The position numbers and the translations under genes were made by a program. A stretch of 34,101 bases of DNA, from NCBI GenBank assembly GCA_027489365.1, contig JAIXZV010000218.1:1-34101 (forward strand), written 5' to 3'. This stretch comes from Sphingomonadales bacterium (GTDB taxonomy: Bacteria > Pseudomonadota > Alphaproteobacteria > Sphingomonadales > Sphingomonadaceae). Positions 15,322-23,540 of this stretch are shown one piece after another; the first letter of the stretch is position 1, and each line of letters begins with the position of its first letter. Below the pieces are notes generated by a model. The model searched no databases and was not told the DNA's origin. It saw only the letters and a program-made list of their open reading frames with translations.

Positions 15322-16023
15322 ATGACCAGCCACCGCAGCATCGTCATCCTCACCGGCGCGGGCATCTCCGCCGAATCGGGGATCGCCACCTTTCGCGGCC
15401 CCGGAGGCTTGTGGGAGGGTCACCGCGTCGAGGATGTCTGCACGCCCGAGGCGCTGGCCGACGATCCGGTGCTGGTGCACCGCTTCTACGATGCGCGGCG
15501 GGCGGCGCTCGCCACCGTGCAGCCCAATGCAGCGCATCACGCGCTTGCGCGGTTGGATGCGGAATGGCCGGGCGGATTGCTGATCGTGACGCAGAATGTC
15601 GATGACCTGCATGAACGTGCCGGAGCGAAGCGTCTGCTGCACATGCACGGGGAATTGCGGTCGGCGTTGTGCGCGGACTGTGGCGCGCAGGGCATTTGGG
15701 ACGGCGATCTGCCGCCGGGATCGATCTGTAGCGCATGCGGCGCGGCGGCGCTGCGGCCCGATATCGTTTTCTTCGGCGAGATGCCGTACCAGATGGACGT
15801 GATCGAGCGCGCGCTCAGCGAAGCCGATCTGTTCGTGTCGATCGGGACGTCGGGCGCGGTCTATCCCGCTGCCGGGTTCGTGCAAGGCGCGCGGTATGCG
15901 GGCGCGCAGACGCTGGAACTGAACCTCGAACGATCGGCGGGGAGCGGCTATTTCCACGAGACAAGGCTGGGTGCTGCGGGGGTGCTAGTGCCCGAATGGG
16001 TCGAGCAAATACTGGCGTCCTGA
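15322..16023 (+). CDS. NAD-dependent protein deacylase, sirtuin family
   Basis: LTGAGISAESGIATFRG, TQNVDDLHERAG, Zn Cys pairs CADC/CSAC, PDIVFFGE, SIGTSGAVYPA. Confidence 0.96.
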   Translation: MTSHRSIVILTGAGISAESGIATFRGPGGLWEGHRVEDVCTPEALADDPVLVHRFYDARRAALATVQPNAAHHALARLDAEWPGGLLIVTQNVDDLHERAGAKRLLHMHGELRSALCADCGAQGIWDGDLPPGSICSACGAAALRPDIVFFGEMPYQMDVIERALSEADLFVSIGTSGAVYPAAGFVQGARYAGAQTLELNLERSAGSGYFHETRLGAAGVLVPEWVEQILAS

Positions 16024-16471: not shown

Positions 16472-16542
16472 CCGTTCGTTTCGAGCGTAGTCGAGAAACT
16501 GGTGTCGGGAACAGGTTTCTCGACTGCGCTCGAAACGAACGG
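16472..16542. repeat. REPIN-like inverted palindrome doublet / possible bidirectional terminator
   Basis: CCGTTCGTTTCGAGCGTAGTCGAGAAACTG (16472-16501) against CAGGTTTCTCGACTGCGCTCGAAACGAACGG (16512-16542): near-perfect inverted arms between convergent genes. Confidence 0.85.
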
Positions 16543-16562: not shown

Positions 16563-17468
16563 TCACTCGACCCAGTCTAGCCCCATTTCTCGGTAGACGT
16601 CGCGCTCGTCGTCCCAGCCCGGCCGGACCTTCACGTGCAGATAGAGGTGCACCGGGCGGCCCATGATGCCGCTCAGTTCGGCACGGGCGCGCGCGCCGAT
16701 TTCCTTGATCCGGGCCCCACCCTTGCCGAGCACGATCGCGCGTTGCGTCGGGCGTTCGACCAGGATCTGCTGGTGGATTTCGACCGATCCGTCCTCGCGC
16801 TCCTTATATTGCTCGGTCTCGATCGCCGAGGCGTAGGGAAGTTCGGCGTGGAGCTGGAGATAGAGCTGCTCGCGCGTGACTTCGGAGGCGAGGCTGCGCT
16901 CGGTCGCGTCGGACACCTGATCCTCGGGGAAATGCCACGGACTCTCGGGCATCCGGGCGGCGAGATGCGCTTTCAGTTCGGGGAGGCCGTCGCCGGTCGA
17001 TGCGCTGACGAAGAAGACTTCGTCGAACTGGACGAGGCCAGTCAGGCGCTCGGCATGGAGCAGCAGCTTGCCCTTGTCGGCAAGATCGACCTTGTTGAGG
17101 ATGAGGTATTTCGGTTCGCGCCGGTCCTTGATGGCCTCGGCAATGGTGGTGACTTTGCTACCGAGCCCGCCCTTGGCATCGACCACCAGTGCGAGCACGT
17201 CGGCCCCCTCGGCTCCGCCCCAGGCCGCCTGCACCATCGCGCGATCGAGCCGGCGCTTGGGCTCGAAGATACCGGGGGTATCGACCAGCAGGAGCTGCGT
17301 ATCGCCCTCGATCGCCACGCCCATCAGCCGCACGCGCGTCGTCTGCGCCTTGGGGGAGACGATCGCGACCTTCTGCCCGACGAGCGCGTTGACGAGCGTC
17401 GATTTGCCGGCGTTGGGCGCGCCGAGGATTGCGACGAGGCCGCAGCGTTGGGGGGTGGGTTCGGTCAT
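16563..17468 (-). CDS. era: GTPase Era
   Basis: G1 GAPNAGKSTLVNALVG, G3 VDTPG, NKVD, KH-domain VLGKGGARIKEIG; start shares 4 nt with upstream GIY-YIG stop. Confidence 0.97.
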   Translation of the reverse strand: MTEPTPQRCGLVAILGAPNAGKSTLVNALVGQKVAIVSPKAQTTRVRLMGVAIEGDTQLLLVDTPGIFEPKRRLDRAMVQAAWGGAEGADVLALVVDAKGGLGSKVTTIAEAIKDRREPKYLILNKVDLADKGKLLLHAERLTGLVQFDEVFFVSASTGDGLPELKAHLAARMPESPWHFPEDQVSDATERSLASEVTREQLYLQLHAELPYASAIETEQYKEREDGSVEIHQQILVERPTQRAIVLGKGGARIKEIGARARAELSGIMGRPVHLYLHVKVRPGWDDERDVYREMGLDWVE

Positions 17469-17860
17469 TGCGGGTCCTTGGGCGGGGCGGGTCCTCCGAC
17501 AGGCTCGGTGCGAACGGAGGGGGTGCGAGAGCTGTCCTCCCAACCCGTTCGCCCTGAGCCTGTCGAAGGGCTCGCCTGATCTTGGCGATTGCGTGCCAGT
17601 AAGGAAAGCCTTTCCCAATCGCCAGCGATCAGTGCTTCCTTCTTGGCGCGGGTCCAGCCTTTGATGCGGCGTTCAGCTTCGAGTGCTTCGATCCTAGTGG
17701 GGAAGTCCTGCGTCCAGACCAGGATGACCGGGCGACGTTTGTGGGTGTAGCCGGGTATCTGGCCGGTCTGGTGCTGGCCGATGCGTTGTTCGAGTGCATC
17801 GGTATGGCCGACATAATAACCGCCATCGGAACAGCGCAGGATGTAGGTCCAGAATGCCAT
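17465..17860 (-). CDS. GIY-YIG nuclease family protein
   Basis: FWTYILRCSDGGYYVGHT...RIGQHQ...RPVILVWTQDF...EALEAERRIKGWTRAKKEALI; lies between rnc and era. Confidence 0.93.
   Translation of the reverse strand: MAFWTYILRCSDGGYYVGHTDALEQRIGQHQTGQIPGYTHKRRPVILVWTQDFPTRIEALEAERRIKGWTRAKKEALIAGDWERLSLLARNRQDQASPSTGSGRTGWEDSSRTPSVRTEPVGGPAPPKDPQ
17493..17520. repeat. outer palindrome variant, era side of GIY-YIG module
   Basis: CCTCCGACAGGCTCGGTGCGAACGGAGG. Confidence 0.7.
17545..17571. repeat. inner inverted repeat, copy 1
   Basis: CCGTTCGCCCTGAGCCTGTCGAAGGGC; exact reverse complement of 17886-17912. Confidence 0.95.
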
Positions 17861-17885
17861 TCCCGGCCTCCCTCGTGGTGCACGG

Positions 17886-17912
17886 GCCCTTCGACAGGCT
17901 CAGGGCGAACGG
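17886..17912. repeat. inner inverted repeat, copy 2
   Basis: GCCCTTCGACAGGCTCAGGGCGAACGG; exact reverse complement of 17545-17571. Confidence 0.95.
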
Positions 17913-19585: not shown

Positions 19586-21079
19586 ATGGCTGCCGACTGG
19601 ACCACGATCGAGGCGCTGCCCTCGCCCCGGCTTGAAACGCTGTTCGCCGAGGATGCGGCGCGGCTGGCGAGCTTCAGCGTCGATGTCGCGGGGCTGCATT
19701 TCGACTGGTCGAAGACGCATCTGACCGCCGAGGCCGTCGCGGCATTCAGTGCGCTCGCCAAGGCGCAGGATCTGCACGGCAAGCGCGAGGCGCTGTTCGC
19801 GGGCGAGGTGGTCAACACCAGCGAGGGCCGCGCGGTCACGCATGTCGCCGAGCGCGGTGAAGGCAGCGAGGACGATGTCGCCAAGGCACGCGTGCTGCAC
19901 GCCCGGATGCGCGCGCTGATCGACGCGATCGAGGGCGGGGCGCTCGGCGAAATCCGCCATGTGCTGCACGTCGGGATCGGTGGCTCCGCGCTCGGGCCGG
20001 ATCTGCTGATCGACGCGCTGGGTCGTGAGGACAGCCGTTATGAGGTCGCAATCGTCTCGAACATCGACGGCGCGGCGCTCGAGGAAGTGTTCGCCAAATT
20101 CGATCCGACCGCGACGCTGCTGGTGATCGCGTCCAAGACCTTCACCACCAAGGAAACGCTGACCAACGCCGATTCGGTGCTGCAATGGATGGGCGAGCAT
20201 GGCGTGGAGGACGCGTACGGCCGCGTCGTCGCGCTGACCGCCGCTCCGGATGCGGCGGTCGAATGGGGCGTCGATGAAACCCGCGTGCTGCCCTTCGCCG
20301 AGAGCGTCGGCGGGCGCTATTCGCTCTGGTCGTCGATCGGCTTTCCGGCGGCCCTCGCGCTGGGGTGGGACACGTTCGAGGAATTGCTCGAAGGCGCGGG
20401 CGAAATGGACCGGCATTTCCGCCAGACCTCGCTCAGCCAGAACGCACCCGTCCTCGCGGCGTTTGCTGACCTGTATTACACACAAGTCCGCCATGCCGAG
20501 ACGCGCGCGACCTTCGCTTATGACGAGCGGCTACGGCTGCTGCCGTCCTATCTCCAGCAGCTCGAAATGGAATCGAACGGCAAGGGCGTGACCGTCGACG
20601 GGCAACCGGTCGGGCGGCCGACCGCGGCCATCGCCTGGGGCGGGGTCGGCACCGACGCGCAACATGCGGTGTTCCAGTTGCTCCACCAGGGCACGCACCT
20701 CGTGCCGGTCGAATTCGTCGCGGTGATCGAGCCCGGCGATACGCTGTCGGAGGAGCATCACCGGCAATTGCTGCTCAACGCCTTCGCGCAGGGGGCCGCG
20801 CTGATGAAGGGGCGCCCGAACGACGATCTCGCACGCAGCTATTCGGGCGACCGGCCGAGCTCGACGATCCTGCTGGAGGAGCTCGACGCGCGGACTTTGG
20901 GCGCGCTGATCGCGTTCTACGAACAGCGCACGTTCGTGAACGGCGTGCTGCTCGGCATCAATTCGTTCGATCAGTTCGGGGTGGAATTGGGCAAGGAAAT
21001 GGCCAAGGCGGCGGACGCCGGTGGCCAGGAATTCGATGCCTCGACGACCGACTTGATCGCGCGTGCGGGGTTGGCGTGA
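19586..21079 (+). CDS. pgi: glucose-6-phosphate isomerase
   Basis: VGIGGSALGPDLL, SKTFTTKETLTNA, GGRYSLWSSIGFPAAL, NSFDQFGVELGKE. Confidence 0.98.
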   Translation: MAADWTTIEALPSPRLETLFAEDAARLASFSVDVAGLHFDWSKTHLTAEAVAAFSALAKAQDLHGKREALFAGEVVNTSEGRAVTHVAERGEGSEDDVAKARVLHARMRALIDAIEGGALGEIRHVLHVGIGGSALGPDLLIDALGREDSRYEVAIVSNIDGAALEEVFAKFDPTATLLVIASKTFTTKETLTNADSVLQWMGEHGVEDAYGRVVALTAAPDAAVEWGVDETRVLPFAESVGGRYSLWSSIGFPAALALGWDTFEELLEGAGEMDRHFRQTSLSQNAPVLAAFADLYYTQVRHAETRATFAYDERLRLLPSYLQQLEMESNGKGVTVDGQPVGRPTAAIAWGGVGTDAQHAVFQLLHQGTHLVPVEFVAVIEPGDTLSEEHHRQLLLNAFAQGAALMKGRPNDDLARSYSGDRPSSTILLEELDARTLGALIAFYEQRTFVNGVLLGINSFDQFGVELGKEMAKAADAGGQEFDASTTDLIARAGLA

Positions 21080-21094
21080 GCGCTTCAATCCTTT

Positions 21095-21124
21095 ATGTGT
21101 AAGATGCTGCGGAGTTATACACAT
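21095..21124. promoter_or_regulatory. inverted repeat over the vapB start, candidate autoregulatory operator
   Basis: ATGTGT (21095-21100) and ACACAT (21119-21124), the latter containing the start codon's AT. Confidence 0.5.
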
Positions 21125-21332
21125 GCGTACGAATATTGAAATCGACGACGCGTTGATGACGGAAGCAATGGCGGCTGCTGGGACGAGTACGAAGCGGCAG
21201 ACCGTCGAAGAAGCGCTCCGGCGAATGGTCGCGATATGGCGTCAGCGAGAATTGCTAGAGCTGCGCGGTCTTGGTTGGGAAGGCGACTTGGACGACATGC
21301 GAACCAGCAAATATGCGGGCGAGACTTGGTAA
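21123..21332 (+). CDS. vapB: VapB-family antitoxin
   Basis: MRTNIEIDDALMTEAMAAAGTSTKRQTVEEALRRMV; followed by overlapping PIN toxin. Confidence 0.88.
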   Translation: MRTNIEIDDALMTEAMAAAGTSTKRQTVEEALRRMVAIWRQRELLELRGLGWEGDLDDMRTSKYAGETW

Positions 21333-21742
21333 CGCTGGTCGATTCAAGCGTCTGGATCGATTTCCTTCGCGATCGCGATACTCGACAGACGGTCGCGCTA
21401 TCCCGGCTTTTGGTGACAGAGCGCATCCAAACCGCCGATCTCGTGCTCGCGGAGGTTCTGCAGGGCGTGAGAGACGATCGTGCGCACGCGAAGGCACTGC
21501 GATTGCTATCGCTGCCCGGCATTTTCGTGATCTCCAATCAATCTGTCGCTGTACAGGCGGCACGCAACTACCGCGCGCTTCGGGGACACGGTTTTACAAT
21601 CCGGAAGACGATCGACACGCTGATCGCCACGCGCTGCATTCTCGATCGCATCCCGCTTCTCTACGCCGACCGTGATTTCGATCCCTTTGTCGCACATCTA
21701 GGTCTGCGGTCCGCCCTCGATCCTTTCCCCGGAGCACCCTAA
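21326..21742 (+). CDS. vapC: VapC-family PIN-domain toxin RNase
   Basis: LVDSSVWIDFLRD, LAEVLQGVRDD, ADRDFDPF acidic residues; TTG start overlapping the vapB stop inferred. Confidence 0.9.
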   Translation: MVTLVDSSVWIDFLRDRDTRQTVALSRLLVTERIQTADLVLAEVLQGVRDDRAHAKALRLLSLPGIFVISNQSVAVQAARNYRALRGHGFTIRKTIDTLIATRCILDRIPLLYADRDFDPFVAHLGLRSALDPFPGAP

Positions 21743-23137: not shown

Positions 23138-23171
23138 CGTCACCCCGGCCTTGTGCCGGGGTCCACCGTGC
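23138..23171. repeat. hairpin palindrome, left arm of GIY-YIG module
   Basis: CGTCACCCCGGCCTTGTGCCGGGGTCCACCGTGC; internal stem ACCCCGGC/GCCGGGGT; exact reverse complement of 23507-23540. Confidence 0.97.
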
Positions 23172-23177
23172 AGCAAG

Positions 23178-23501
23178 ATGCCACGCATGACGATCGAGCG
23201 CGTCCCCTGCGTCTACATTTTGGCGAGCGGCTATAATGGTCGGCTCTACGTCGGCGTCACGTCGAACCTGATCGGCAGGATTTTACAACATCGCGCCGGG
23301 ACGTTCGACGGGCATACCAAGAAGTACCAGATAAAGCGGCTCGTCTATTTCGAAACCGCCGACACGATGGAATCCGTCTTTGCCCGCGAAAAGCAGTTGA
23401 AACGCTATCGGCGAGACTGGAAGCGCAATCTCATCGAGCATGAGAATCCGGCGTGGAATGACCTTGCGGTTGGGCTCGGCCTACCGCCCTTGGCTGGGTG
23501 A
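23178..23501 (+). CDS. GIY-YIG nuclease family protein
   Basis: VPCVYILASGYNGRLYVGVTSNLIGRILQHRAG...KRLVYFETADTMESVFAREKQLKRYRRDWKRNLIE. Confidence 0.95.
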   Translation: MPRMTIERVPCVYILASGYNGRLYVGVTSNLIGRILQHRAGTFDGHTKKYQIKRLVYFETADTMESVFAREKQLKRYRRDWKRNLIEHENPAWNDLAVGLGLPPLAG

Positions 23502-23506
23502 TCGCG

Positions 23507-23540
23507 GCACGGTGGACCCCGGCACAAGGCCGGGGTGACG
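23507..23540. repeat. hairpin palindrome, right arm of GIY-YIG module
   Basis: GCACGGTGGACCCCGGCACAAGGCCGGGGTGACG; 34/34 inverted match to 23138-23171. Confidence 0.97.

Follow-up and report, generated by a model that had tools for sequence, protein, structure and literature searches.

A small GIY-YIG endonuclease gene takes the spacer position in a head-to-head dimer of CGTC-tagged REPs at positions 23138–23540 of the window, the 34,101-nt stretch of Sphingomonas DNA analysed here, and the same REP is dispersed elsewhere as gene-free dimers, which are its abundant form. We consider it likely that the unit consists of a site-specific single-strand GIY-YIG nuclease of the Ssn type together with its cognate CGTC-tagged REP. 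Since the pairing recurs with matching types across many bacteria, the GIY-YIG enzyme probably fills the place of the partner that a large class of repeats was long described as lacking.

The nuclease gene and its CGTC-REP arms

The two arms of the module are 37 nt each, inverted and 97% complementary, and the exact match spans their outer 34 nt (23138–23171 and 23507–23540). The left CGTC-REP (23138–23174, plus strand) is composed of the tag CGTC (23138–23141), stem ACCCCGGC (23142–23149), loop CTTGT (23150–23154), stem GCCGGGGT (23155–23162) and tail CCA (23163–23165), that is, an 8-bp stem with a 5-nt loop; its subterminal sequence is CCGTGCAGC. The right CGTC-REP (23504–23540, minus strand) lies head-to-head with the left. 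The core ACCCCGGC-CTTGT-GCCGGGGT, folded as DNA, reached -10.4 kcal/mol in one arm and -10.8 kcal/mol in the other and was more stable than all 200 shuffles. The earlier note had described each arm as a hairpin, which is correct for this core, the only part of the arm that folds. Coincidental pairing of the arms is negligible and can be excluded; the expected number of exact 27-mer inverted matches in the window is about 3e-8, and the corresponding figure for a gene with a repeat copy no more than 100 nt away on each side, given how densely the repeat occurs in the genome, is about 1e-6.

The enclosed open reading frame (23178–23501, plus strand; ATG at 23178, TGA at 23499–23501) encodes an Ssn-like protein of 107 amino acids, with an alternative in-frame ATG possible at 23187. 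The count of 108 codons, stop included, was confirmed, and the earlier placement of the gene, starting 6 nt past the left exact arm and stopping 5 nt short of the right, holds to the base. GIY-YIG (PF01541, E = 1.4e-11) is the sole Pfam match of the protein, and Tyr13, Tyr24, Gly26, Arg34, His38 and Glu71 (catalytic) are invariant among 16 aligned sequences. Its putative ssDNA recognition sequence is CGTCACCCCGGCCTTGTGCCGGGGTCCACC. Phage records gave no match, nor did the PADLOC anti-phage defence models (best only E = 0.036), and the Rfam matches, to microRNA-like hairpins, were all below threshold and attributable to chance. A window repeat, D6 (15512 versus 23163), was rejected as a candidate MITE remnant; because there is no REP at 15512, the match is taken as chance. 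Just upstream of gor, at 21063–21742, two small adjacent ORFs resemble a VapB/VapC-type toxin–antitoxin pair by eye.

According to a 2013 survey, CGTC-tagged REPs have an unpaired CGTC tag, an 8–9 bp stem, a 4–5 nt loop and a CCA tail, form head-to-head dimers, occur chiefly in Alphaproteobacteria and 'seem lacking a dedicated transposase' (PMC3733652). The window repeat shows the tag, stem, loop, tail and head-to-head dimers of this superfamily and fits its definition. Among parsed repeats that frame Ssn-like nucleases in Sphingomonadales, the GTC of the tag lies directly 5′ of the stem in 27 of 33. The source genome, a 3.94-Mb Sphingomonas draft that is 87% complete, holds 39 copies of the window repeat at up to two mismatches (reversed control, 1). 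The 16 close pairs formed by these REPs are without exception head-to-head; 15 of them span 78–183 nt, with the module as the outlier at 393 nt. The repeat of another module of this genome, CCCCGGCGNAGGCCGGGG, is present in 44 copies, and that of the sister module C243, CATCCCCGCGAAAGCGGGG, occurs at dozens of sites (the C243 locus gave 126 matches in total). The repeat of module C187, CATGCTGAACTTGTTTCAGCAT, is confined within its genome to its own module.

The window contains a second unit, which the earlier note had missed. Its GIY-YIG gene, of the 'RCxDG' type (17465–17860, minus strand; PF01541, E = 5.2e-19), is a 131-aa open frame that runs through its own distal repeat. The framing repeats are of the CCGTTCGCCCTGAGC type, with a CGTTCG-type arm at 17545–17574 (plus strand) and its inverted partner at 17883–17912 (minus strand); a divergent extra copy lies beside the module at 17487–17517 (minus strand), and at 16472–16542 (strand not assigned) two inverted copies of a related CGTTCG-type repeat (CCGTTCGTTTCGAGC...) form a dimer with no gene between them. 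The CGTTCG type has 111 copies in the genome, with 0 for a reversed-pattern control. Proteins of the RCxDG branch (window 17465–17860, L031, L032, L038–L045, L050, L067, L068 and L084) are only 31–34% identical to the window protein, and a single unit of their repeat, CCGTTCG...GTCGAAGG, forms no stable hairpin; the branch may be a separate nuclease–repeat system. At L032 (C1), L039, L040, L043, L044 and L067, in several species, the open frame of the RCxDG nuclease continues through the repeat into an RNA-methyltransferase-like gene downstream.

Framing of GIY-YIG genes and matching of repeat types

Framing by inverted repeats is general among stand-alone GIY-YIG genes. The source genome has seven GIY-YIG matches, one of them UvrC-like and unframed; the six stand-alone genes, two of which lie in this window, are all framed, by six different repeat types. 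Across 31 Sphingomonadales genomes, 54/68 stand-alone genes are framed (inverted-arm score of at least 18) compared with 0/28 UvrC loci, where the highest score was 15 (Fisher, 4e-14). In a set of named genomes, 54 of 75 assessable loci are framed versus 2 of 147 control windows shifted by 600 nt (1e-31). The inverted-arm score was used here instead of single REPs near the gene, for which 116/147 shifted windows score; the control is unfair for single REPs because the shifted windows overlap the module's own REPs. Framed loci in this set include Neisseria MAG, Endozoicomonas, planctomycete, Omnitrophus and Calditrichaeota records, and CGTC REPs also frame homologues in Aeromonas, Azospirillum, Novosphingobium and Rhizobium. 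A Pseudomonadota-wide sample gave a match in 255 of 398 genomes and framing at 22 of the 29 best loci assessed, the sets overlapping in taxa and the loci within each being phylogenetically non-independent.

Several further loci were observed in these searches. At L101 and L103 the nuclease ORFs are broken by stops and the CGTC-REP framing is retained, as in decaying modules. The nuclease is also present on 23 IMG/VR viral contigs (L317–L339), many of them REP-framed, which could be prophage or host DNA. A divergent homologue on Planktothrix plasmid p1 (L206) has an MmeI-type restriction gene on one side and DISARM drmA on the other.

Each nuclease lineage retains REPs of its own type. In a tree of 103 nucleases, 12 changes in loop length of the nearest REP were counted, where shuffled labels averaged 33.9 (minimum 26); for stem type there were 24 changes compared with 44 (minimum 38). 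Orthologous loci contribute to this signal. Protein and repeat distances correlated weakly in a Mantel comparison (r = 0.13; 191 of 5000 permutations reached this value), and the tree count is the clearer measure. When 81 genomes of the genus were compared, at least five copies of the window REP were found in 10 of the 13 with a close nuclease (at least 65% identity to that of the window) versus 9 of the 68 others (p = 1e-5, kinship ignored). In two of the three exceptions with a close nuclease and fewer than five copies, a variant, CCCCGGACTTGTTCCGGGG, surrounds the nuclease. These results strongly support the analogy first drawn with REP/RAYT pairs, a dedicated nuclease together with its own palindromic repeats. 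Small intergenic genes might also come to be bracketed by abundant hairpins through coincidence or terminator selection, and REPs are indeed intergenic and abundant, with several types following gor in relatives. Such an origin is nevertheless extremely improbable given the framing at 54/75 loci as against 2/147 shifted windows, the tracking of nuclease phylogeny by REP type and the occurrence of the C187 REP at its own module alone.

The reading of the unit as an Ssn-type nuclease with its cognate REP has points against it as well: the REP of the C187 module occurs nowhere else in its own genome, and G015 and G052 carry REPs without a close nuclease. The CGTC REPs, which are widespread and had no dedicated enzyme in the 2013 survey (PMC3733652), are now paired type by type with GIY-YIG nucleases; together with the position of the gene as a spacer, this pairing makes their origin and spread directly testable. 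With several such pairs, a single genome also provides a ready-made collection of single-strand nucleases, each matched to its repeat and possibly site-specific.

Turnover of REP loci and the spread of the repeats

Between the source species and its sister, nearly all REP positions have turned over. Comparison of 19 REP loci of the source genome with 34 of its nearest relative, the sister species G043, yielded three orthologous positions. At the gor locus, G043 carries a dimer of the window REP with no gene inside (L128, approximately 2006–2101). Its dimers are uniform, with 30 of 31 measured spans at 78–97 nt (modal 86, spacer about 40 nt), and their subterminal sequence (CCGTGCCGC) is much like the module ends. 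Such uniform dimers with fast turnover are best seen as REPIN-like, short-lived units, and the nuclease unit as a dimer of this kind with a gene as its spacer.

The gene gor was found in 80/80 relatives searched; the nuclease was absent beside it at all 29 best loci. Several REP types lie 3′ of gor in relatives. For the C243 sister module, the orthologous site is module-free in G034, a genome without a comparable set of that REP. The ten members of the window nuclease subclade occupy seven contexts; three other nuclease clades have fixed loci across species, and retention of the same locus in several sister clades suggests vertical inheritance rather than hopping, which also counts against a simple Ssn–REP interpretation. 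Among pairs of related loci, too few of which are close, neither an exact insertion boundary nor a target duplication was seen, a further point against that interpretation.

These observations bear on whether the module is an autonomous IS-like element, its REPs serving as terminal inverted repeats and its nuclease moving the whole 403-bp unit. Its absence beside gor in all 29 relatives, the seven contexts of its subclade and the module-free site in G034 would fit such an element. We nevertheless regard it as unlikely, as near-identical multiple copies were found within no genome examined (paralogues in the source genome are at most 60% identical to the window protein), no target duplications were seen in the few close pairs, three other clades are fixed at conserved loci and the abundant form is the gene-free dimer, not the module. 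Of the earlier note's proposal of a mobile unit, the absence of the module beside gor stands, the sister species having the dimer only; module-free gor sites were found as it had asked, though with no exact empty-site boundary, and because no exact-boundary excision or insertion was seen, autonomous mobility of the gene unit is something we can still only infer. Of the counter-evidence it had named, only part was found: gene-free dimers make up most of the REP copies, and in several sister clades of the nuclease the locus is fixed by vertical descent.

If the Ssn-type reading is right, the nuclease would, by analogy with its family, be specific for its own REP, recognising the REP hairpin in single-stranded DNA at the replication fork, during DNA uptake or in conjugation, and would nick REP-bearing ssDNA at or beside the hairpin. 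On this analogy the nuclease likely cuts its own REP, and cleavage would be limited to ssDNA if the reported Ssn biochemistry applies. Nicking could allow the host to process REP-bearing ssDNA or keep it out and so limit REP dimers, or REP dimers may excise or re-insert, as with RAYT for GTAG-REPs; the nuclease would then spread REPs. Tentatively, and with more doubt than confidence, we suggest that GIY-YIG nucleases mobilise CGTC-REP dimers across Pseudomonadota and beyond, as a non-HUH system independent of RAYT with several orthogonal pairs in some genomes. If true, this would be a second single-strand, non-HUH system spreading REPIN-like elements besides RAYT. A comparably doubtful possibility is that the nuclease is a domesticated modulator of uptake or transformation, as is reportedly the case for Neisseria Ssn/NTS, the repeats marking or modulating incoming ssDNA and owing their spread to other causes. 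Homology to a Neisseria gene within dRS3 repeats and the vertically fixed clades are consistent with such a role, but an uptake filter would call for neither several nuclease–REP pairs in one genome nor the near-complete replacement of REP positions seen from one sister species to the other.

Relation to Ssn and other known systems

A paper said to have appeared in Nat Commun in 2025 reportedly describes Ssn of N. meningitidis, a GIY-YIG nuclease specific for ssDNA, together with the NTS repeat with which it is paired, and also thousands of homologues that have sequences of their own. In a protein search that yielded two N. gonorrhoeae records of chromosome size filed as plasmids, the window protein was 52% identical to the homologue there (L199), which sits in a CGTCATTCCCGCGCAGGCGGGAATC repeat array with 16 CGTC-type hairpins in 2.26 kb. 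We take this gene within dRS3 repeats to be the published ssn gene. The dRS3 repeats are the CGTC-1 repeats of Neisseria (PMC3733652). The location of the gonococcal homologue inside dRS3 links the module to the Ssn family and, judged by homology and repeat plan, the module belongs with Ssn, as a further member of that family. The earlier note knew of no described GIY-YIG partner for such repeats, but the reported Neisseria Ssn/NTS pair appears to be the same arrangement; our literature search found no paper joining GIY-YIG with REPs, and RepRanger leaves GIY-YIG unmentioned. Three database records filed as plasmids look like chromosomes: NZ_CP119140.1 and NZ_CP119142.1 (N. gonorrhoeae, 2.17 Mb) and NZ_AP026896.1 (Aeromonas caviae, 4.9 Mb).

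Like Ssn, the window protein is a GIY-YIG protein of about 100 aa whose gene is flanked by its cognate repeat in a genome dotted with it, and the Neisseria repeat (CGTCATTCCCGCG...GCGGGAATC) shares the tag–stem–loop–tail plan. The window repeat differs in its stem and 5-nt loop and forms a clean head-to-head dimer where Neisseria has arrays; several nuclease–repeat pairs occur in one genome here. With the CGTC-REP superfamily it has in common the CGTC tag, 8-bp stem, 5-nt loop, CCA tail, head-to-head dimers and an alphaproteobacterial host, whereas the survey gives no enzyme gene (PMC3733652) and here a GIY-YIG gene replaces the dimer spacer. In RAYT/TnpA-REP systems, a nuclease gene is flanked by inverted dispersed GTAG REPs, which also form REPINs (PMC2817692, PMC3116915). 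The module gene is likewise flanked by dispersed inverted REPs, with REPIN-like gene-free dimers elsewhere, but it has a GIY-YIG fold, its only Pfam match, instead of the Y1 HUH (IS200-like) transposase of RAYTs, and a CGTC instead of a GTAG tag; since the catalytic fold differs, it works like a RAYT–REP pair without being a RAYT. Insertion sequences are set apart by their multiple near-identical genome copies, which its diverged paralogues are not. Free-standing GIY-YIG homing endonucleases share the catalytic domain, whereas the module shows no intron or sign of homing and is tied to dispersed REPs.
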